Shown: in pieces, positions 18,902 to 29,279 of the stretch | How the letters are laid out: the number at the start of each line of letters is the position of its first letter | Numbering within the stretch: position 1 is the stretch's first letter | From: Holophagaceae bacterium | GTDB taxonomy: Bacteria > Acidobacteriota > Holophagae > Holophagales > Holophagaceae | NCBI GenBank assembly: GCA_003165415.1 | Contig: PLUC01000099.1 | Location: 1 to 35,222, forward strand | Length of the DNA stretch: 35,222 bases | Direction of reading: 5' to 3' | Notes under the pieces: model-generated | Seen by the model: only the letters and a program-made list of their open reading frames with translations | Told to the model about the DNA's origin: nothing | Database searches by the model: none | Translations under genes and position numbers: made by a program

Positions 18902-20479
18902 CTACTCGATGTGGGCGTATTCGAAGCAGGTGTGCCCCAGGTAGGTCTTGAACAGGCCCTTGACGCTGGGCTTGCAGACCACCCGCGCCAGGTAGTAGTA
19001 GGCCGGCATGACCGGCATGTCGGTGGCGAGGATCTTCTCCGCCGCGACGAAATTGGCCATGCGCACCTTCTGGTCCGAGCTCTTGTGGTTGGCCTCGATC
19101 AGGCTGTCGTAGGCGGGGTTCGACCAGCGGTTGTTCTGCGTGTTCTGGCTGCTCTGGAAGATCTCCAGGTTGGTCATGGGATCGGAGTAGTCGCCGCTCC
19201 AGCCGTCGGCGCCGATGTTGAAGTTGCCCGCGTGCAGCTGGCCCCAGTAGACCTTGGGCTCGAAGTTCTGGATGTCCACGGTGACGCCGAGGTTGGTCTT
19301 CCACATGGCCTGGAGGGCCTGGCACAGGTCCTTGGCCTGCTGGTTGGCCTGGCAGATGATCGTCGCCTTGGGGAAGCCCTGGCCGTTGGGATAGCCGGCG
19401 GCGGCCATGAGCTTCCTGCCTTCGCCGATGTCTTCCTTGATCGGGTCGCCGACCACATCGCGGAAGGCCTTGGTGGTCTGCACGCCGTGGTTGATGCCGT
19501 AGGGCACGAAGCCCAGCGCCGGCTTCTCGCTGGTCTGCAGGATGTTCTTCACGAGCTGGGCGCGGTTGATGGAGATGCTGAAGGCGCGGCGCACCCGGGC
19601 ATCGTTGAAGGGCCTGACCGAGGTGTTGAAGTCATAGAAGTACACCCCGATCCGGGGGAAGGCGTTCAGCTCCGGGGTGCCCTGGTACTTCCTCAGTCCC
19701 TCGACACTGGGGTCCTCGAAGGCCTGGATTTCGTTGGTCTGGTAGGCGGCGAGCTGGGCTTCCTGGGCCTCGATGACCTCGATGTCGAGGGTGTCCAGCT
19801 TCACCTTGGCGGCGTCCAGGTAGTAGGGGTTCTTGGTGAGGATGTAGTGCTGCTTGGGCTTGTACTCGGTCAGGCGGAAGGGACCGTTGCCGATGAAGGT
19901 CTTGAGGTTCTTGGTCCACGGCTCCGGGCCTTCCACCAGGTCCTTGCGCACCGGCATGTAGGCGGTGACGCAGAGCAGGTCGGGGAAATAGGGGGTGGGG
20001 TTCTCCAGGGTGACCTTGAGCGTCCTGGCATCCAGCGCCTGGACCCCCAGCTGGTCCACCGGGACCTTGCCCTCCACCACGGCCTTGCCGTTCTTCAGGT
20101 AGTAGAGATAGAAGGATGCGGGGGAGGCGGTCTTGGGGTTGGCCACACGCTTCCAGGAGTATTCGAAGTCCTGGGCGGTCACCGGCTTGCCGTCCGACCA
20201 CTTGGCGCCTTCGGCGATGGTGAAGGTATAGATGGTCTTGGTCTTGTCCAGCTTGTAGCCGCTGGCCATGCCCGGGACCGGGCGGCCGTTGGGGTCCAGT
20301 TTCTCCAGGCCCGTGAACAGGGCCTTGAGCACGGTGGAGGCCCGGAACCATTCGTTGAGATTGGGATCCAGGGTCTGCGCCTCGCCGCCCAGGGCGTAGA
20401 CCAGTTTCTGCGGCGGGGCCGCGGCCAGGGGAACGAGCAAGCCGAGCGAGAGCAGGACAGAAGCCAGGCGCATCTTCAT
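18902..20479 (-). CDS. oppA: Oligopeptide-binding protein OppA (SBP family 5)
   Basis: The 525-residue extracytoplasmic solute-binding protein has a signal peptide (about residues 1-21, ending LAAA) and no lipobox cysteine, so it is probably free in the periplasm. Conserved SBP_bac_5 segments are present: LDPNLNEWF near the start, AKWSDGKPVTAQDFEYSWKR, IGNGPFRLTEY, and DARVRRAFSISINR. The E. coli OppA/MppA type fits best. The ATG has GGAGG at good spacing. It is the first gene of the leftward opp operon; its leader would include or border the long hairpin at 20513-20558. Confidence 0.93.
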   Translation of the reverse strand: MKMRLASVLLSLGLLVPLAAAPPQKLVYALGGEAQTLDPNLNEWFRASTVLKALFTGLEKLDPNGRPVPGMASGYKLDKTKTIYTFTIAEGAKWSDGKPVTAQDFEYSWKRVANPKTASPASFYLYYLKNGKAVVEGKVPVDQLGVQALDARTLKVTLENPTPYFPDLLCVTAYMPVRKDLVEGPEPWTKNLKTFIGNGPFRLTEYKPKQHYILTKNPYYLDAAKVKLDTLDIEVIEAQEAQLAAYQTNEIQAFEDPSVEGLRKYQGTPELNAFPRIGVYFYDFNTSVRPFNDARVRRAFSISINRAQLVKNILQTSEKPALGFVPYGINHGVQTTKAFRDVVGDPIKEDIGEGRKLMAAAGYPNGQGFPKATIICQANQQAKDLCQALQAMWKTNLGVTVDIQNFEPKVYWGQLHAGNFNIGADGWSGDYSDPMTNLEIFQSSQNTQNNRWSNPAYDSLIEANHKSSDQKVRMANFVAAEKILATDMPVMPAYYYLARVVCKPSVKGLFKTYLGHTCFEYAHIE

Positions 20480-20512
20480 GGTTGCCTCCAGGGTGGGCGA
20501 TGATGGGGTTTC

Positions 20513-20558
20513 GGGGTCGTTGCGAAATAACCTGTTAAGGTTATTTCGCTACGACCCC
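20513..20558. repeat. Long hairpin between divergent oppA and bzaF, with a displaced partial copy
   Basis: Arms 20513-20533 and 20538-20558 are 21 bases each and pair with a single T-T mismatch (20521/20550) around the loop GTTA. The inner 12 pairs are perfect. A partial copy lies 48 bases on: ACCTGTCCAGGTTATTTC at 20578-20595 matches 20530-20547 at 16 of 18 positions, followed by GACGAC against TACGAC. The arms contain an AT-rich core (GAAATAACCT) unlike the surrounding GC-rich sequence. It is too far from any gene end to be a terminator for known genes. A dispersed REP/MITE-like repeat or a large operator are the options. Confidence 0.7.
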
Positions 20559-20654
20559 TTATGCCGGGGCCGCAACGACCTGTCCAGGTTATTTCAAGAC
20601 GACGGCTTCGGGGTGGCGGTGGTTTCATTCTGACCCCAAACCTGTCATGTTAAA

Positions 20655-20719
20655 GGCACTTTCGTGCCAGAGGCACGGGAAGCGGGTGCGAACCTCCCCG
20701 GCGCGCACCGCCCGGGAGG
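20655..20719 (+). promoter_or_regulatory. Cobalamin-riboswitch-core-like leader with ribosome-site-sequestering hairpin
   Basis: This leader ends five bases before the bzaF start. GGGAA (20677-20681), a stem-loop GGGTGCGAACCTCCC (20684-20698), and CGCGCA-CG (20702-20710) follow in the order and spacing of the conserved core of cobalamin riboswitches such as that of E. coli btuB. CCTCCC at 20693-20698 is also complementary to the ribosome-binding site GGGAGG at 20714-20719, so the core stem and a sequestering hairpin exclude each other. GTGCC at 20664-20668 can pair with GGCAC either upstream (20655-20659) or downstream (20672-20676). The 3' part of a full riboswitch, including the B12 box, is not seen, so this is a short or variant element, or a chance resemblance. 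Confidence 0.42.
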
Positions 20720-20724
20720 CCCGT

Positions 20725-22035
20725 ATGACCACGCAGCTCCAGTTCGCCCAGCAGGGCCAGATCACCGACCCCATGCGGGCCGTCGCCTGCGGGGAGGGCC
20801 TGGCCCCGGAGCTGGTGCGGGACCGGGTGGGCCAGGGCACCATCGTCATACCCTGCAATCCCAACCGCAAAGCCCAGCGGGTCGTGGGCATCGGCCTGGG
20901 CCTGCGCACCAAGATCAACGCCAGCATCGGCACCAGCTCCGACATCTGCGACCTGGAGCTGGAGCTGCGCAAGGCGCGCATCGCCGAGGCGGAGGGCGCC
21001 GACACCCTGATGGAGCTCAGCGCCGGGGGCGACCTGGACCGCATCCGCCGGGAAGTGCTGGCCGCCACCGCCCTGCCCGTGGGCAACGTGCCGCTCTACC
21101 AGGCCTTCTGCGAAGCGGGCCGGAAGTACGGGGACCCCAACAAACTGGACCCGGAGTACCTGTTCGAGCTGATCGAACGGCAGCTGGCCGACGGCCTCAG
21201 CTTCATGGCCATCCACTGCGGCCTCAACCGTTTCACCCTGGAGCGGCTGCGCAAGCAGGGCTACCGCTACGGCGGCCTGGTGAGCAAGGGCGGCACCTTC
21301 CTGGTCTCCTGGATGGAGACCAACCACAAGGAGAACCCGCTGTACGAGCAGTTCGACCGGGTGGCGGGACTCCTGGCCAAGTACGACGCGGTGCTTTCCC
21401 TGGGCAACGGGGTGCGGGCCGGGGCCATCCACGACAGCCACGACCGGGCCCAGATGGCGGAAATGATCCTCAACTGCGAACTGGCCGAGATCGGCCGCGG
21501 CCTGGGCTGCCAGATGATGGTGGAAGGTCCCGGCCACGTGCCCCTGGACGAGATCGAGGCCAACATCATCCTGGAAAAGCGCATGAGCGGCGGCGCGCCG
21601 TACTACGTGCTGGGCCCGCTCCCCGCCGACCGCGGCGCCGGCTACGACCACATCACCGCCGCCATCGGCGCCGCCGAGGCCGCCCGCTACGGCGCCGACC
21701 TCATCTGCTACATCACCCCCGCCGAGCACCTGGCCCTGCCCAACGAGGACGACGTGCGCGAGGGCGTGCGCGCCACCCGCCTGGCCGCCCAAATCGGCGA
21801 CCTGGCCAAGTACCCCGAGCGGCGGGACCTGGAGAAGCGCGCCGCCCTCACCCGCCGCGACAGCCGCTGGGCCGAGCACCTGGACCTGCTGCTGTTCCCG
21901 GAGAAGGCCAAGGAGATCCGGGCCAGCCGGATGCCAGCCAAGGAAGAGACCTGCACCATGTGCGGGGATTTCTGCGCCAACCGCAAGGGCATGGAACTGT
22001 TCAGCGACTGCATCGGACCTGACAAGCGGCTGTAG
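20725..22035 (+). CDS. bzaF: ThiC-family radical SAM enzyme, probably 5-hydroxybenzimidazole synthase BzaF
   Basis: The 436-residue protein is a ThiC homologue of the short form, with the C-terminal iron-sulfur motif C410-x2-C413-x3-C417. ThiC makes the thiamin pyrimidine from aminoimidazole ribotide; BzaF makes 5-hydroxybenzimidazole, the B12 lower ligand precursor, from the same substrate. Positions that are nearly constant in ThiC differ here: DLSTGGD is ELSAGGD (97-103), the LHAG motif is IHCG (H164, C165), and DGxRPG is NGVRAG (N228-G233), followed by AIHDSHDRAQ. These changes, plus the cobalamin-like leader, favour BzaF. No other thi or cob gene is nearby. The ATG at 20725 has GGGAGG at five bases. 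ThiC remains the main alternative; the family itself is certain. Confidence 0.65.
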   Translation: MTTQLQFAQQGQITDPMRAVACGEGLAPELVRDRVGQGTIVIPCNPNRKAQRVVGIGLGLRTKINASIGTSSDICDLELELRKARIAEAEGADTLMELSAGGDLDRIRREVLAATALPVGNVPLYQAFCEAGRKYGDPNKLDPEYLFELIERQLADGLSFMAIHCGLNRFTLERLRKQGYRYGGLVSKGGTFLVSWMETNHKENPLYEQFDRVAGLLAKYDAVLSLGNGVRAGAIHDSHDRAQMAEMILNCELAEIGRGLGCQMMVEGPGHVPLDEIEANIILEKRMSGGAPYYVLGPLPADRGAGYDHITAAIGAAEAARYGADLICYITPAEHLALPNEDDVREGVRATRLAAQIGDLAKYPERRDLEKRAALTRRDSRWAEHLDLLLFPEKAKEIRASRMPAKEETCTMCGDFCANRKGMELFSDCIGPDKRL

Positions 22036-22352: not shown

Positions 22353-23945
22353 ATGACCAAAGTGATTCGTAGCGAGGAAGTGGCGGCCCTCATCAAGGAT
22401 GGCGCGACCGTTGGCGCGAGTGCCATCACTCTGGCCGGCTGGCCGGAAGAAGTGGCCATGGCCATGGAGAAGAGCTTCATTGAGACCAGCCATCCCGCTG
22501 GGCTCACCGTGGTCCACGGCGCCGGGATCGGGGACTGGAAGACCAAGGGAACCCAGCACTTTGCCCACCCGGGAATGGTGCGCCGCTGGATCGGCGGGCA
22601 CACCGGGGTCTCCACCGACTTCGCCAAGATGATCATCGACGGGGGCTGCGAGGGCTATTGCCTGCCCCAGGGCGTGATCTGCCAGCTGTGGCGGGAGATC
22701 GCCGCGCACCGCCCGGGGGTGATCACCAAGATCGGCCTGGGCACCTTCGTGGATCCCCGGCTCGAAGGCGGCAAGATGAACAAGGCCACCACCAAGGAGC
22801 TGGTCCGGGTGATCGAGCTGGATGGCGAGGAATGGCTGCACTATCCCACCTTCCCGGTGGACGTGGCGATCATCCGCGGCACCACCGCTGACGAGGACGG
22901 CAACCTGACCCTGGAGAACGAAGGAGCGCTGATGGAGTGCCTGCCGCTGGCCCAGGCGGCCAGGAACAGCGGCGGCATCGTCATCGCGCAGGTGGAATAC
23001 CTGGCCAAGACGGGCACGCTGAACCCCATGAGTGTCCGGGTGCCGGGGGTGCTGGTGGACTACATCGTCATCGCCAAGCCGGAGAACCACTGGCAGGCGG
23101 GCGCCACCTACTACAACCCGGCCTTCTCCGGCCAGATAAAAGTGCCCCTCAATGCCATTCCCGAGCTGCCCCTGGACGAGCGTCTGGTGATGGCCCGCCG
23201 CGCGGCCATGGAACTGACCCCGGGCTCCATCGTCAACCTGGGCATCGGCGTGCCGGACGGCGTGGCCATCGTGGCTTCCATGGAGGGCGCGGCCGACCTG
23301 CTGACCCTGACCAGCGAATCGGGCGCCATCGGCGGGGTGCCGGCCGGGGGCCAGAACTTCGGCATGTCCTTCAACGCCCAGGCCATGGTGGAACAGCAGG
23401 CGCAGTTCGACTGGTATGACGGCGGCGGGCTGGACCAGGCCTTCCTGGGCGCGGCCGAAGTGGACCGGAACGGCAACGTCAACGTCAGCAAGTTCAAGGG
23501 GCGCTGCGTGGGCTGCGGCGGGTTCATCAACATTACCCAGAACGCCAAGAAAGTGGTCTACTGCGGCACCTTCACCGCCGGCGGCCTGAAGGTCCTGGTG
23601 GCCGACGGCAAGCTGGTCATCGCCCAGGAAGGCCGGGGCAAGAAGTACGTGAACAAGGTGGAGCAGGTGACCTTCAGCGGCGCCTATGCCACCAAGACCA
23701 GACAGCCGGTGCTCTACATCACCGAGCGCTGCGTATTCGAGCTGCGGGAGGGCGTGCTGACCCTCACCGAAATCGCGCCGGGGATGGACCTGGAGCGGGA
23801 CATCCTCGCCCAGATGGAGTTCCGGCCGGCCATCGCCAAGGACCTCAAGCTGATGCCCGCGGAGATCTTCCACGCCAAGTGGGGCGGGCTGCGCCAGATC
23901 ATCGAAACCAAGAGGACGCCGGCCCCCGAGCTGGTCCTCGTCTAA
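22353..23945 (+). CDS. pct: Propionate-type (acetate/acyl) CoA-transferase
   Basis: The 530-residue family I CoA-transferase exchanges CoA between acyl-CoA and a free short-chain acid through a glutamyl-CoA intermediate. The catalytic glutamate is E322 in TSESGAIGG, at the position expected from Clostridium propionicum propionate CoA-transferase (Glu324), and the oxyanion glycine loop GIGVPDG precedes it. Both halves (alpha residues about 1-270, beta about 275-520) are fused, as in Pct/YdiF. The ATG follows GGAG. It heads an operon with two acyl-CoA dehydrogenases, EtfBA, FixCX and a MaoC hydratase, so its likely role is activating the acid that those enzymes handle. Specificity for propionate rather than butyrate, lactate or acrylate is not settled. 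Confidence 0.85.
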   Translation: MTKVIRSEEVAALIKDGATVGASAITLAGWPEEVAMAMEKSFIETSHPAGLTVVHGAGIGDWKTKGTQHFAHPGMVRRWIGGHTGVSTDFAKMIIDGGCEGYCLPQGVICQLWREIAAHRPGVITKIGLGTFVDPRLEGGKMNKATTKELVRVIELDGEEWLHYPTFPVDVAIIRGTTADEDGNLTLENEGALMECLPLAQAARNSGGIVIAQVEYLAKTGTLNPMSVRVPGVLVDYIVIAKPENHWQAGATYYNPAFSGQIKVPLNAIPELPLDERLVMARRAAMELTPGSIVNLGIGVPDGVAIVASMEGAADLLTLTSESGAIGGVPAGGQNFGMSFNAQAMVEQQAQFDWYDGGGLDQAFLGAAEVDRNGNVNVSKFKGRCVGCGGFINITQNAKKVVYCGTFTAGGLKVLVADGKLVIAQEGRGKKYVNKVEQVTFSGAYATKTRQPVLYITERCVFELREGVLTLTEIAPGMDLERDILAQMEFRPAIAKDLKLMPAEIFHAKWGGLRQIIETKRTPAPELVLV

Positions 23946-23962
23946 GGAAAGGTGGATTGAAC

Positions 23963-25120
23963 ATGAGCATTCTCACCGCAGAGCAGAAACAGATCCAGGC
24001 GCAGGCCACGGCCTTCGTCGCCAAGGAGATCATTCCGTTCGCCGAGAAGTTCGACAAGGCCGGCGAGTTCCATCCCTACCTGCTGGACGCGGCCCGGGAG
24101 AGCAGGATCTTCGCCATGGCCGTGCCCATGGCCTTCGGCGGGCTGGAATACAGCGCGCTGACCCAGGCCGTGGTGCTGGAGGCCTGGGGCTACGGCTGCG
24201 CCGGCATGGCCACGACCCTGGCGGCGAGCGTGCTGAGCATGGACTCGGTGCTGGTGGCCGGGACCGAGGCCCAGAAGAAGCAGTTCTTCGACCCCATGGT
24301 GCGCGGCGAGATCGGCTCGTTCGGCCTGACCGAGCCCAGCGCCGGATCCGACGCCGGCAACGGCAAGTCCACGGCCGTCCGGGTGGGTGACGAGTACGTG
24401 ATCAACGGCAGCAAGTGCTGGATCACCAACGGCGGCTATTCCAGCGTGTTCGTGATCTACGCGCTCACCGATCCCGCGGCGGGCATGAAGGGCATCAGCG
24501 CCTTCATCGTCGAGAAGGGCACCCCCGGCTTCACCATCGGCACCGTGGACCACAAGCTGGGCATCCGCAGCTCCAACACCGTGGAGCTGCTATTCAAGGA
24601 CGTGCACATCCCGGCCGCCAACCTCCTGGGCAAGGAAGGCGAGGGCATGAAGATCGCCATGAAGACCCTGGACATGGCCCGCCCGGCCATCGCCAGCCTG
24701 AGCCTGGGCCTGGCCCAGCGCGCGCTGGACGAGTGCGTGAAGCACATGCAGAAGCTGTATCCCGAGAAGGCCCAGCCCGGCCAGACCCTGCAGTTCAAGC
24801 TGGCCGACATGCGCATCGAGATCGAAGCGGCCCGTCAGCTGCTCTACCACGCCATGAACCTGCGCGACGCCGGCCTGCCCTACTCCGCCGAGTCGGCCAT
24901 GACCAAGACCTTCAGCTCGGATGTGGCCATGAAGATCACCACCCAGGCCGTGCAACTCATGGGAGCCTACGGCTACACCTCGGTGCTGGCCAAGCTCATG
25001 CGCGACGCCAAGATCATGCAGATCTACGAAGGCACCAACCAAATCCAGCGACTGGTGATCTCCCGCGCGGTGCTGGCACCGGCACGGCCCGCCGTCGCAG
25101 TCCAGAAAGGCGGCAACTGA
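23963..25120 (+). CDS. Acyl-CoA dehydrogenase, subunit-like 1 (lacks the R-x-x-F-G motif)
   Basis: The 385-residue flavoprotein would insert or reduce the alpha-beta double bond of an acyl-CoA. It keeps LTEPSAGSD (L122-D130) and the catalytic glutamate E356 in IYEGTNQIQR. The R-x-x-F-G motif that in most family members contacts the FAD of the neighbouring subunit is absent: at residues about 258-275 the sequence is CVKHMQKLYPEKAQPG instead. Length is normal. The ATG at 23963 follows AAGGTGG. It overlaps the next dehydrogenase gene (TGATG), a sign of coupled expression. The complementary defect in that partner suggests one hetero-oligomeric enzyme. A butyryl-CoA-dehydrogenase-like short-chain role is the default guess. 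Confidence 0.88.
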   Translation: MSILTAEQKQIQAQATAFVAKEIIPFAEKFDKAGEFHPYLLDAARESRIFAMAVPMAFGGLEYSALTQAVVLEAWGYGCAGMATTLAASVLSMDSVLVAGTEAQKKQFFDPMVRGEIGSFGLTEPSAGSDAGNGKSTAVRVGDEYVINGSKCWITNGGYSSVFVIYALTDPAAGMKGISAFIVEKGTPGFTIGTVDHKLGIRSSNTVELLFKDVHIPAANLLGKEGEGMKIAMKTLDMARPAIASLSLGLAQRALDECVKHMQKLYPEKAQPGQTLQFKLADMRIEIEAARQLLYHAMNLRDAGLPYSAESAMTKTFSSDVAMKITTQAVQLMGAYGYTSVLAKLMRDAKIMQIYEGTNQIQRLVISRAVLAPARPAVAVQKGGN

Positions 25121-26256
25121 TGAGCATCCTCCTGACCGAAGAACAGCAACTGATTGGCCAGAGCGCCCGGGATTTCGCCAAGGAATACCTGGAGCCGATG
25201 GTCCTGGAGATGGACCGCACCGGTCAGTACCCGGCCGCGGTGGTGAAGCAGCTGGCGGCCCAGGATTTCCTCGGGCTCTTCCTGGCGGGCGAGTACGGCG
25301 GAGCCGAGGCCGGCTACGTCAGCCTGGTGGAAGTGGTCGAGAACCTGTCGCGGGTGAGCGCGGCGGTGGCCTCCATCATGGTCAACCATGCACTGGCCGC
25401 CTACGCCATCCAGCGCTGGGGCAGCCCGGAGCAGAAGAAGACCTGCCTGCCCAAGCTGGCGGCGGGCGAGGTACTGGGCGCCTTCGCGGTGTTCGAGCAC
25501 GGCCCCACGCCGGGCGTCGGCGCCGGCGCCCTGATGGCGACCAAGCTCCCCGAGGGCTGGGCGCTCAAGGGCACCAAGGCGTTCGTGCGCAACGCCGGTG
25601 TGGCCGGCGCCTATGTGGTGCTGGCCTGCACCGACCCCGCGGCCGGCGCCAAGTCGCTGGCGGCTTTCATCGTCAACGCCAAGGCCAGTGGCCTGACCGT
25701 GGGCGCGCCCTATGAAACCATGGGCCTGAAGGGCTGCCCCATGGCCGACCTGGTGTTCGACAATGTGATGGTGACCGATACCGCCATCCTGGGCGGCAGC
25801 ACCGACGGCTCCGCCATCATGACCGAAACCCTGGCCCTGGCCTCGGTGGCGGAAGCCGCCCAGACCGTGGGCATCGGACAGGCGGCGGTGGAGCACGCCG
25901 CGGCCTACGCCAAGACCCGGATCCAGTTCGGCCGCCCCATCGCGTCCCTGCAGGCGATCCAGACCCTCCTGGCAGAAGTGGCGGCGGACTGCCACCTGGC
26001 ACGCCTGGGCCTGCGCTATGCGGCCCAGCTCATGGACGACGGCGAGCCGTTCCTGGTGGAGGCCGCCATGGTCAAGCAGTTCCTGGCGCGCTTCGGCGCC
26101 AAGATGCTGATCGACACCGTGCAGGTGGAAGGTGGCTTCGGCTACTCCGAAACCATGCCGCTGCCCCGCCTATTCCGGGACATCGCCGGCACCACCCTGC
26201 TGGAAGCCCCCGCCGACTACCCCGAAAAGACCATCGCCGCAGCTCTGCTCGCATAG
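25120..26256 (+). CDS. Acyl-CoA dehydrogenase, subunit-like 2 (lacks the LTEPxAGSD motif)
   Basis: The 378-residue protein keeps R267-x-x-F270-G271 (TRIQFGRP) and a glutamate E362 aligned with the catalytic one, but the FAD/substrate loop LTEPxAGSD is replaced by FEHGPTPG around residues 125-132, and the EGT following the catalytic residue is EAP. Its partner immediately upstream shows the reverse pattern. In Mycobacterium steroid metabolism, pairs of acyl-CoA dehydrogenases form alpha2beta2 enzymes that bind FAD at only two of four sites; the same arrangement is inferred here. The start overlaps the stop of the preceding gene. It is followed after 13 bases by etfB, its probable electron acceptor's gene. 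Confidence 0.86.
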   Translation: MSILLTEEQQLIGQSARDFAKEYLEPMVLEMDRTGQYPAAVVKQLAAQDFLGLFLAGEYGGAEAGYVSLVEVVENLSRVSAAVASIMVNHALAAYAIQRWGSPEQKKTCLPKLAAGEVLGAFAVFEHGPTPGVGAGALMATKLPEGWALKGTKAFVRNAGVAGAYVVLACTDPAAGAKSLAAFIVNAKASGLTVGAPYETMGLKGCPMADLVFDNVMVTDTAILGGSTDGSAIMTETLALASVAEAAQTVGIGQAAVEHAAAYAKTRIQFGRPIASLQAIQTLLAEVAADCHLARLGLRYAAQLMDDGEPFLVEAAMVKQFLARFGAKMLIDTVQVEGGFGYSETMPLPRLFRDIAGTTLLEAPADYPEKTIAAALLA

Positions 26257-26269
26257 CAAGGAAACTCGA

Positions 26270-27049
26270 ATGCCAAAGCTTCTCGTTTGTTACAAGTGGG
26301 TGCTCAACGAGCAGGACATCAAGATCCGGCCCGAAGACCTCAGCCTGGACACCAGTCGGGCCAAGGGCAAGATCAGCGACTTCGACCGCAACGCCATCGA
26401 GGAAGCCAGCCTGATCGTGGAGCAGCAGGGCGGCACCGTGGACGCGCTGTCCTACGGCACCCCCGCCGTCAAGCAGTCGGTGAAGGACGCGCTTTCGCGC
26501 GGCCCCAACCGGCTGCTGTGGATCGGCGACCCGCAGGCGGAGGACGCCGACGCGCTGGTCATCGCCAACGTGCTGGCGGCGGCCATCCGCAAGGCCGGGC
26601 CGTACGACCTGATCCTTTGCGGCGAGGGCAGCTCCGACATGTTCTACCAGCAGACGCCGGCCCGGCTGGCGGCGCTGCTGGGCCTGCCCTGCGTCACCTT
26701 CGTTGCAAAGATGACCCTGGAAGGGGACGTGCTGAAAGCCACCCGGAAACTGGGGGACTGCACCGAGCAGGTCAGCGTCACCGGCCCGGCGGTGGTGAGT
26801 GTGCTCAGCGAGATCAACAAGCCGCGCATCCCCAGCCTCAAGCAGGTGCTTGGGGCCGCCAAGAAGCCCAGCGAGGAGATCGCCATCGGCAGCCTCGGCC
26901 TCGCGGCCGACGAGCTTCAGCCCAGGGCGGTTCGCAAGTCCGCCAAGGGTTTCCTGATGAACCGCAAGAACATCATTTTCAAAGAGTCTGACGCGGCAGC
27001 CAATGTCGCCAAGCTCGTCGCCAGCCTCGCCGCCGAAGGCCTGGCCTAA
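26270..27049 (+). CDS. etfB: Electron transfer flavoprotein beta subunit (EtfB/FixA)
   Basis: The 259-residue protein has the EtfB opening KLLVCYKWVLNE and the central region DLILCGEGSSDMFYQQTPARLAALL, which forms part of the nucleotide-binding site. It pairs with EtfA to accept electrons from acyl-CoA dehydrogenases. Because fixC and fixX follow in the same operon, the pair most likely belongs to an EtfABCX complex; whether it bifurcates (using FAD in place of the AMP of ordinary Etf) cannot be decided from these residues alone. The ATG follows AAGGA. Confidence 0.92.
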   Translation: MPKLLVCYKWVLNEQDIKIRPEDLSLDTSRAKGKISDFDRNAIEEASLIVEQQGGTVDALSYGTPAVKQSVKDALSRGPNRLLWIGDPQAEDADALVIANVLAAAIRKAGPYDLILCGEGSSDMFYQQTPARLAALLGLPCVTFVAKMTLEGDVLKATRKLGDCTEQVSVTGPAVVSVLSEINKPRIPSLKQVLGAAKKPSEEIAIGSLGLAADELQPRAVRKSAKGFLMNRKNIIFKESDAAANVAKLVASLAAEGLA

Positions 27050-27062
27050 AGGAGTTCGAATC

Positions 27063-27989
27063 ATGGCAGGTATCTTCATTTTCTCGGAAGACCCGCAACT
27101 GGCCCAGCAGCTGCTGACGCCCGGGTTGGCATTGAAAGCGTCCCTGGGTCAGCCGCTGGTGGCGCTCACCGCCAGCTCGGCGGATGCCCAGACGCTGGCG
27201 TCCCTGGGCGCCGACCGGGTCGTGATGCTCAAGGCCGCGCGGACCACCCCCGAGGCGCTGGCTCCGGCTATCGCCGACCTGCTCGCCAAGGAACAGGCCA
27301 GCGTGGTGCTGGTGGGCGGCACCCTGCGCGGCAGGCATCTGGCGGCGCACGTGGCGGCCGCCCTCAAGGCCGGCATGACCACCGACGCCAAGGTGCTGGC
27401 CATCCGGGACGGCAAGCTGGAGGCCCAGCGCATCCTATACGCGGGCCTGGCGGTGTGCGAAGAGGTGGTGGCGCTGCCGGCGGTGGCGACCATCCCCCAG
27501 CGCACCTTCCTCGCCCCCGCGGCCGCGGCCCAGGCGGGCACGGTGGAGACCCTGGAGGTCCAGGCCGACGCCCGGGTCGTGGTGGAGAGCACCACGCCGG
27601 TGGAAAGCGAGGGCGTGGACATCACGGCGGCCATCAAGCTGGTTTCCGTGGGCCGGGGCTTCGGCAAGAAGGAGGACCTGTTCCTGGCCCGGGATCTGGC
27701 CGGCGCGCTCAAGGCGGAAATCTCCTGCACCCGCGGGGTCGCCGAGGACGAGCACTGGCTGCCCATCGAGCGCTACATCGGCATCAGCGGCCAGACCGTG
27801 AAGCCCGAGCTGTACCTGGCCGTGGGGCTGTCCGGACAGGTGCAGCACATGGTCGGCTGCCGGGAGTCCAAGGTGATCGTGGCGGTGAACAAGGACGAGC
27901 AGGCGCCGATCTTCGAGGCCGCCGACTACGGCATCGTCGGGGACCTATACCAGGTGCTGCCGCTGCTGACCGCGGCGCTGAAGAGCTGA
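27063..27989 (+). CDS. etfA: Electron transfer flavoprotein alpha subunit (EtfA/FixB)
   Basis: The 308-residue protein has a variable N-terminal lobe and the conserved C-terminal FAD domain: SVGRGFGKKEDLFLARDLAG, then CTRGVAEDEHWLP, IGISGQTVKPELYLAVGLSG and ADYGIVGDLYQVLP. These make the FAD site of Etf alpha. It starts 14 bases after etfB with AAAGGAG upstream. It functions with EtfB and, by context, passes electrons to FixC. Confidence 0.94.
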   Translation: MAGIFIFSEDPQLAQQLLTPGLALKASLGQPLVALTASSADAQTLASLGADRVVMLKAARTTPEALAPAIADLLAKEQASVVLVGGTLRGRHLAAHVAAALKAGMTTDAKVLAIRDGKLEAQRILYAGLAVCEEVVALPAVATIPQRTFLAPAAAAQAGTVETLEVQADARVVVESTTPVESEGVDITAAIKLVSVGRGFGKKEDLFLARDLAGALKAEISCTRGVAEDEHWLPIERYIGISGQTVKPELYLAVGLSGQVQHMVGCRESKVIVAVNKDEQAPIFEAADYGIVGDLYQVLPLLTAALKS

Positions 27990-27998
27990 GGCGACACC

Positions 27999-29279
27999 AT
28001 GGCGGAAGATGATTTTGACGTGATCGTGGTGGGTGCCGGCCCGGCGGGATCCGCCTGCGCCTATACCCTGGCCAAGGGCGGCAAGAACGTCCTGCTGCTG
28101 GAGCGCGGCGACAGCGCCGGCGCCAAGAACGTCAGCGGCGGACGGCTCTACACCTACGCCCTGGACCTGGTGGATCCGGAACTTGCCAAGCGCGCCCCAC
28201 TGCAGCGCCGGATCGTGCGCGAGCAGATCATGCTGCTGAGCGGCACGCAGGCCACCACCATCGACTACGCCGACCTGGACAAGGACGCGGCTGGGCCGCA
28301 GTCCTACTCGGTGGTGCGGGCCGTACTGGACGAATGGTTTGCCGGCGAGGTGGAGGCCCAGGGCGCCAGCGTCGTGCCCGGCATGCGGGTGGACAGCCTG
28401 CTGGAGGAGAACGGACGGATCGTGGGCATCCGGGTCGGCGAGGACGAGATGCGCGCCGCCATGGTGGTGGCCGCCGACGGGGTCAACTCGCTGCTTGGCC
28501 AGCAGGCCGGACTGTTCCCGGAGGTGCAGGGGCACGCGGTCGGGGTCGGCGTGAAGGAGACCATCGAACTGCCGGACGCCGTGATCAACCAGCGCTTCGG
28601 GGTGAAGGACGGCGAGGGCGCCGCCCGGGTGGCCATCGGCTGCACCGAGGGCATCTCCGGGGGCGGGTTCCTGTACACCAACCAGGGCAGCATCTCCCTG
28701 GGCATCGTGTTCAACCCCGAGCAGGCGGCCCAGAACGGCCGCCAGATCCAGGAGATCTTCCAGGACTTCAAGCTGCACCCGGCCATCGCGGCGCTCATCG
28801 AAGGCGGCACCAGCATCGAGTACGGCGCCCACCTGGTGCCGGAGCGGGGCTACCACGGCATCCCCGAGCGGCTGTACCGGGAAGGCCTGCTGGTGGTGGG
28901 CGATGCCGCCCAGTTCGGCATCAACACCGGGATGATCATCCGCGGCATGGACCTGGCGATGGTGAGCGGCCTGGCCGCGGCCCGGGCCATCCTCCAGGCC
29001 GGGAACGCCGCCGGCACCGGTCCGGCCTACCGGGCCCAGCTGGAGGAGCTGCTGCTGCTGCCCAACATGCGGGCCTACGCCGAGTTCCACGGGATCTTCG
29101 GGATCAACCGGATCTTCAAGGCGTATCCGGACCTGGCCAACCAGGCCCTGCAGTTCCTGTTCACCGTGGACGGCAAGGTTCCGCCGCCGATGATCAAGAA
29201 ACTGAAGTCCATCGTCAAGAGCAAGGTGTCGTACGGGCAGCTCGCGGCCGACGCCTGGAAGGGGTTTCGCAGCGTATGA
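27999..29279 (+). CDS. fixC: FixC family Etf:quinone oxidoreductase-like flavoprotein
   Basis: The 426-residue flavoprotein begins with an FAD-binding Rossmann motif, G12-x-G14-x-x-G17 (VVGAGPAGSAC), and has DGVNSLLGQQAG and VGDAAQFGINTGM as second and third nucleotide contacts, matching FixC and the main domain of Etf-ubiquinone oxidoreductase without its iron-sulfur part; that part is supplied by fixX, whose start overlaps (ATGA). FixC accepts electrons from EtfAB and delivers them to (mena)quinone. No membrane segments are obvious, consistent with a peripheral protein. Known relatives occur in nitrogen fixation, carnitine reduction and anaerobic acid metabolism. Confidence 0.93.
   Translation: MAEDDFDVIVVGAGPAGSACAYTLAKGGKNVLLLERGDSAGAKNVSGGRLYTYALDLVDPELAKRAPLQRRIVREQIMLLSGTQATTIDYADLDKDAAGPQSYSVVRAVLDEWFAGEVEAQGASVVPGMRVDSLLEENGRIVGIRVGEDEMRAAMVVAADGVNSLLGQQAGLFPEVQGHAVGVGVKETIELPDAVINQRFGVKDGEGAARVAIGCTEGISGGGFLYTNQGSISLGIVFNPEQAAQNGRQIQEIFQDFKLHPAIAALIEGGTSIEYGAHLVPERGYHGIPERLYREGLLVVGDAAQFGINTGMIIRGMDLAMVSGLAAARAILQAGNAAGTGPAYRAQLEELLLLPNMRAYAEFHGIFGINRIFKAYPDLANQALQFLFTVDGKVPPPMIKKLKSIVKSKVSYGQLAADAWKGFRSV

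Follow-up and report, generated by a model that had tools for sequence, protein, structure and literature searches.

Two products of one enzyme family

Does the ThiC family gene at positions 20725 to 22035 serve thiamin synthesis, converting aminoimidazole ribotide (AIR) to HMP-P, or does it make the lower ligand of a cobamide? The gene lies in a stretch of 35,222 nt (here called the window), contig C28 of a 4.84-Mb metagenome-assembled genome (MAG) from the Holophagaceae (Acidobacteriota; 94.2% complete, 7.4% contaminated, 273 contigs). Our best explanation, drawn from sequence comparison, is that the gene very probably encodes BzaF, an oxygen-independent radical-SAM enzyme whose predicted product from AIR is 5-hydroxybenzimidazole (5-OHBza). 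The preliminary description of this DNA had made the same call, BzaF and not ThiC, and it is strongly supported by sequence identity, by a tree, by the residues of the AIR pocket, and by the presence of a separate canonical ThiC. The window BzaF itself is a further member of a known enzyme family; it is the genomic setting that is unusual. The features of the gene are as follows.

20714 to 20719, plus strand: likely ribosome-binding site, GGGAGG, from the sequence
20725 to 22035, plus strand: bzaF, encoding a BzaF-type radical-SAM enzyme of 436 aa (putative 5-hydroxybenzimidazole synthase), from identity, tree, and class-specific sites
20923 to 20925, plus strand: codon of Ser67 (Asn228 of Arabidopsis thaliana ThiC [AtThiC], which contacts the 3'-OH of AIR)
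21013 to 21015, plus strand: codon of Glu97 (Asp in 61/61 ThiC rows)
21406 to 21408, plus strand: codon of Asn228 (Asp383 of AtThiC, which contacts N3 of AIR)
21952 to 21975, plus strand: codons of Cys410, Cys413, and Cys417, a CxxCxxxC motif found in 82/82 BzaF-like rows

The window gene belongs with BzaF

The reading frame is intact, from an ATG at 20725 to a stop codon ending at 22035. A mechanical open reading frame opens earlier, at 20647; we place the start at 20725 because GGGAGG lies just upstream and the relatives, when aligned, start at M1. Two relatives match the DNA from 20715 onward, and the GC3 of the gene, 0.95, is similar to that of its neighbors. The product is an intact ThiC-family radical-SAM protein that matches Pfam PF01964 with 557 bits.

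The window protein is 69.2% identical over residues 1 to 434 to the annotated, plasmid-encoded BzaF of Trichlorobacter lovleyi SZ (WP_012471694.1), which adjoins cobT and was the sole match above 60% identity among 379 plasmid records. The two proteins share their length, a whole-length identity of 69%, the four pocket residues discussed below, and the one-gene system. GSU3005 of Geobacter sulfurreducens has likewise been named as BzaF, in the accessible part of PMC7726332. Four aligned BzaF sequences were used to scan a species-genome collection via two peptide patterns only; this yielded 496 confirmed relatives, and the best 80 of these, which were retained, are 73 to 84% identical to the window BzaF. 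Among 396 sampled genomes of the phylum, by comparison, identity to ThiC-type proteins was at most 51%, and higher matches were confined to the window's own genome and two other Holophagaceae genomes, G013 and G021.

A tree of 56 rows gave the same division: a branch with 100/100 support parts 31 BzaF-like from 25 ThiC rows, and the window protein falls outside thiamin ThiC rather than within it. These rows were taken from 83 BzaF-like and 61 ThiC rows, with BzaA and BzaB not included and with L065 (same place as L035), L037 (identical to L006), and L038 (identical to L005) left out. ThiC rows were mostly labeled by the family model plus similarity; of the five named ThiC rows, three are annotated as ThiC beside thiamin genes and two come from records unannotated at that place. 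The sister group of BzaF among ThiC is unsure, since, according to a warning of the tree program, the BzaF/ThiC join brings long branches together.

The gene is also not the only ThiC homologue of its genome, the other circumstance that the preliminary description had named as telling against BzaF. Contig C92 carries a ThiC of the long canonical type, truncated at the contig end, that is 89 to 92% identical over 314 aa to the ThiC of five relatives and groups with the genus in the tree. The absence of thiamin genes around bzaF was borne out among the window proteins scanned (8, 9, and 9 proteins in three scans of a subset of the open reading frames). The warning that such a gene would be misannotated as thiC was well founded: the window protein passes the cutoffs of two of the three ThiC equivalog models listed (549 bits against a cutoff of 410, and 498 against 460), and NCBIfam ThiC models thus do not separate BzaF. 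It is hardly conceivable that the gene encodes BzaA or BzaB, which are likewise ThiC paralogues and work as a pair (PMC6461909, in its accessible part), so that it would be active only with a partner: the match to TIGR04386 (BzaB), 489 bits, is far under the cutoff of 700, the MAG yielded a single gene of this kind in addition to ThiC, and the nearest annotated relative is BzaF.

A BzaF-type AIR pocket on a ThiC fold

Three motifs had first suggested BzaF, ELSAGGD (residues 97 to 103), IHCG (163 to 166), and NGVRAG (228 to 233), and all are present. Their weight turned out to be uneven. Glu97, Asn228, and Ala232 are class specific, occurring in 82/82 BzaF-like rows and 0/61 ThiC rows. The alanine of ELSAGGD and Cys165 are not: alanine is found in 26/82 BzaF-like rows, with threonine, as in ThiC, in 54/82, and Cys165 occurs in 19/61 ThiC rows too. 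Over all class-specific sites, the window protein has the BzaF residue at 19 of 19.

An offset of 68 was used for residue mapping; it puts AtThiC Glu422, His426, and His490 (we assume the numbers of the two histidines) onto E267, H271, and H335. Glu413 and Cys474 of Caulobacter crescentus ThiC map onto E267 and C328. All of these residues are present, as are C410, C413, and C417, whose CxxCxxxC arrangement we take to be the Fe4S4 cluster motif. The same offset places AtThiC Asp383 at Asn228 and AtThiC Asn228 at Ser67. At these two AIR-contact positions, BzaF-like rows have Ser and Asn (82/82) and ThiC rows Asn and Asp (61/61), and the ThiC-type Asp and Asn are absent from the window protein. 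Its pocket, with Ser67, Glu97, Asn228, and Ala232, is thus that of all 82 BzaF-like rows.

According to the accessible part of PMC11117688, AIR is bonded by AtThiC Asp383 at N3 and by AtThiC Asn228 at the 3'-OH, and the D383A and N228D variants use up AIR with no HMP-P formed. The same part reports that D383N, which has the residue seen in the window protein, retained some HMP-P activity, and this counts against a simple reading of Asn228.

An AlphaFold2 model of the window protein (mean pLDDT, 81) places Ser67, Glu97, and Glu267 at the ends of barrel strands and Asn228 two residues past one; loops including residues 232 to 239 have a pLDDT below 50. In the PDB, the model best matches substrate-bound AtThiC structures (TM score, 0.85). 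Fold and catalytic residues are therefore shared with the A. thaliana and C. crescentus enzymes, whereas identity in the structure alignment is 36 to 38% and the AIR contacts differ.

A divergent thiamin ThiC, present as a second copy for HMP-P synthesis, is highly improbable. In its favor, the window protein passes two ThiC equivalog models and shares with ThiC the radical-SAM cysteines, E267, H271, C328, and H335, and D383N has residual activity (PMC11117688, accessible part). It is opposed by the 100/100 branch, by identities of 69 to 84% to BzaF, where ThiC-type proteins of the phylum sample reach 51% at most, by the BzaF-type residues of the pocket, by the canonical ThiC already in the genome, and by the cobalamin riboswitches behind which relatives of the gene sit. 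For BzaF, known chemistry of the family suggests that the C-terminal Fe4S4 cluster would cleave SAM, that the resulting 5'-deoxyadenosyl radical would abstract a hydrogen from C5' of AIR, and that the altered pocket (Ser67, Glu97, Asn228, and Ala232) would steer the radical cascade to a benzimidazole and not to HMP-P.

Distribution and origin of bzaF

By title, 50 of the best 80 of the 496 relatives are Desulfo- organisms and 25 are unplaced Proteobacteria, Deltaproteobacteria, or Pseudomonadota; the remainder are two Victivallales, one Kiritimatiellia, one unnamed bacterium, and one Holophagaceae entry, which is the same DNA as G021. In the tree, the window BzaF groups with its nearest relatives, the genes of G021 and G013 (84% identity; support, 100/99), and this Holophagaceae clade is nested among mostly Desulfobacterota rows. 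Most likely, bzaF reached the Holophagaceae from the Desulfobacterota by transfer. The BzaF-like genes L086, L136, and L139, in Kiritimatiellia and Victivallales MAGs, are also nested among Desulfobacterota rows, apparently as further transfers or binning errors.

When 36 further genomes of the family were searched with the Pfam model, a second full-length copy of the BzaF type turned up in two, G013 and G021. The single-contig congeners G001, G002, and G004 had one match each, and G003 and G019 showed two contig-edge fragments. The window BzaF is 83 to 84% identical to its counterparts in genus g9, compared with 89% for ThiC; the greater divergence of BzaF is compatible with common inheritance followed by faster change and also with separate transfer. 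DNA similarity to G013 around the gene is limited to positions 20715 to 22032. The genes on either side are as follows.

18902 to 20479, minus strand: OppA-like substrate-binding protein, divergent from bzaF
22353 to 23945, plus strand: CoA-transferase, first gene of an operon that is syntenic in 4/5 congeners

To the left of bzaF lies an opp-type peptide transporter and to the right an operon of the CoA-transferase/acyl-CoA dehydrogenase/ETF type. The operon (22353 to 29279) encodes a CoA-transferase, an acyl-CoA dehydrogenase, and ETF- and FixC-like proteins, with 75 to 80% DNA identity in four congeners. From 22349 on, the right flank is syntenic in 4/5 congeners, and the left flank (opp) is not; left flanks are alike in G002, G004, and G005 but not in G001, and the junction thus varies from one congener to another. 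The interval between the divergent oppA and bzaF starts holds a strong inverted repeat (20513 to 20558; 21-nt arms with 95% complementarity around a 4-nt loop) and another, weaker inverted-repeat pair (20516 to 20603).

Eight Holophagaceae and T. lovleyi proteins served as queries for cobamide genes beside bzaF, in flanks of differing length and with divergent genes missed. A cobamide gene was found in the flanks of 26/80 BzaF loci, with cobT within 400 nt in 19/80; beside the window bzaF, there was none among the queries tried.

Cobamide metabolism of the host

The preliminary description had proposed that the organism makes its own benzimidazole-type cobamide. For the lower ligand this is probably right, with BzaF as the putative synthase; for the corrin ring it probably is not. 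CbiC and CbiD, the two proteins that the corrin-ring test covered, had no match in the MAG (94% complete) or in its five congeners (0/6 genomes of the genus), and both occur in 2/2 genomes of genus g9. BluB shows the opposite distribution, 6/6 and 0/2. Across these eight genomes, BzaF thus accompanies corrin genes in g9, BluB accompanies a lack of them in the window's genus, and both BzaF and BluB occur in the MAG. G013 and G021 have CbiC and CbiD and no BluB, and in G013 the BzaF-like gene stands before cobO.

CobT, which the preliminary description had flagged as a gene to look for, is encoded elsewhere in the MAG, on contig C62 (C62:3096-4097; 400 bits). C62 also holds a histidine phosphatase, a cobalamin riboswitch, a TonB receptor, a BtuF/C/D-like transporter, CobU, and a CobQ/CobB-like protein. 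The CobT of congener G003 (C334:45599-46546, L150) is 41% identical to that of the MAG and those of G002 and G004 are 75 to 76% identical; congener G001 had no CobT match. A riboswitch search of the genomes, in which 118/515 candidates were scored, gave nine cobalamin riboswitch matches in G021 and a single one per genome in the window's genus. CbiZ, which would open imported cobamides, was found in none of the six genomes of the genus nor in G013, and at two places in G021; free cobinamide would not need CbiZ. With no match to CbiC or CbiD and with CobT, CobU, CobQ-like, and uptake genes present, the MAG probably represents an organism that salvages corrinoids and adds a lower ligand of its own, as far as a draft genome indicates. 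CobT would activate 5-OHBza for attachment to the imported corrinoid, a use of the compound in the cell that we infer from these genes.

The claim that the lower ligand is made without oxygen would hold for BzaF, but the genome also encodes the oxygen-dependent BluB. Like the putative BzaF, BluB, the DMB synthase, makes a benzimidazole lower ligand; it belongs to a different family and destroys reduced flavin with oxygen (PMC8123684, accessible part). The BluB of the MAG (G000:C17:21644-22255, L213) is only 64 to 65% identical to the BluB proteins of its five congeners, and synteny with the congeners is lacking in its flanks; the BluB of G002 is 80 to 95% identical to those of the other four congeners.

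The combination of BzaF, BluB, and an apparently missing corrin pathway could be an artefact if the left part of the window, with bzaF, or the BluB contig (C17) came from another organism through binning or joining. We consider this unlikely. The MAG has 273 contigs and 7.4% contamination, congener synteny breaks at about 22349, just right of bzaF, and its BluB is the 64 to 65% outlier described above. Yet the right flank is syntenic in 4/5 congeners, the junction varies among the congeners too, and the tetranucleotide profiles of the left and right parts agree at 0.85; for C17 the values are 0.93 and 0.88 against the left part and 0.86 and 0.82 against the right, while genus g9 is lower, at 0.48 to 0.79. 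These profiles discriminate weakly, a Desulfobacterota-type locus scoring 0.74 with the right part against 0.76 for the MAG's own C62.

Regulation of bzaF

Control by a cobalamin riboswitch, noted as frequent for bza genes in the preliminary description, was recovered for relatives and not for the window copy, where none is recognizable. Among 12 distinct BzaF loci (of 82) analyzed with Rfam, 9 have a cobalamin riboswitch that ends less than 400 nt from the start codon and 2 have one 1.4 to 2.3 kb upstream; the T. lovleyi gene had none upstream in the stretch examined. The BzaF-like genes of G013 and G021 follow such a riboswitch. In the window, no Rfam family reached its gathering score anywhere, and no Rfam riboswitch matched positions 20480 to 20800 even at E values of up to 1. 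The window copy has most likely lost its riboswitch. One element upstream of the gene was found by eye, and patterns were tested afterwards.

20677 to 20692, plus strand: string resembling a cobalamin-riboswitch core, GGGAAGCGGGTGCGAA

The string GGGAAGCGGGTGCGAA resembles the 5' core of the riboswitches of this family; the conserved 3' half is absent. Across all loci compared, a strict core pattern matched only four distinct riboswitch sites, which recur in several loci, and positions 20677 to 20692. A looser pattern gave 42 matches not classed as riboswitches against 13 classed as such (repeats included) and therefore means little, and the RNA fold is not unusual (z, -1.8). A relic of the riboswitch is a possible, post hoc reading of this sequence.

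That bzaF itself is a decaying or unused relic in the MAG we regard as improbable. The terminal branch of the window copy, 0.21 against 0.045 and 0.055 for the other two Holophagaceae copies, is in keeping with decay, as are the missing riboswitch match and the lack of a cobamide neighbor among the queries tried. In contrast, the frame is full length, with a plausible ribosome-binding site and a GC3 of 0.95 like its neighbors, and the catalytic residues and all 19 class-specific sites are retained.

Implications

Compared with BzaF of the Geobacterales and Desulfobacterota, the window BzaF belongs to a Holophagaceae genome without CbiC or CbiD matches; its gene lies away from cobamide genes, has no recognizable riboswitch, and shares the genome with BluB. 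A possible but tentative account is that the organism is a salvager with two lower-ligand synthases, BluB (DMB, requiring oxygen) and BzaF (5-OHBza, oxygen free), that may switch between cobalamin and a 5-OHBza cobamide with the oxygen supply, bzaF having been freed from B12 repression and its riboswitch reduced to a relic. In the accessible portions of the open-licence literature, we found no description of bzaF and bluB co-occurring in one genome; searches of that literature also returned nothing on bzaF in Acidobacteriota, on cobamides in Holophaga, or on Acidobacteriota cobalamin together with bluB.

The four residues Ser67, Glu97, Asn228, and Ala232 offer a simple test of BzaF against ThiC, and the same positions are candidates for how one fold yields two products. 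Which organisms can use a cobamide depends on its lower ligand, and lower ligands are predicted from genes; since BzaF passes the ThiC models, producers of 5-OHBza are hidden. In the accessible parts of PMC8123684 and PMC6461909, bza genes are read as marks of obligate anaerobes with de novo cobamide synthesis. BzaF in an apparent acidobacterial salvager that also encodes BluB would speak against that reading.
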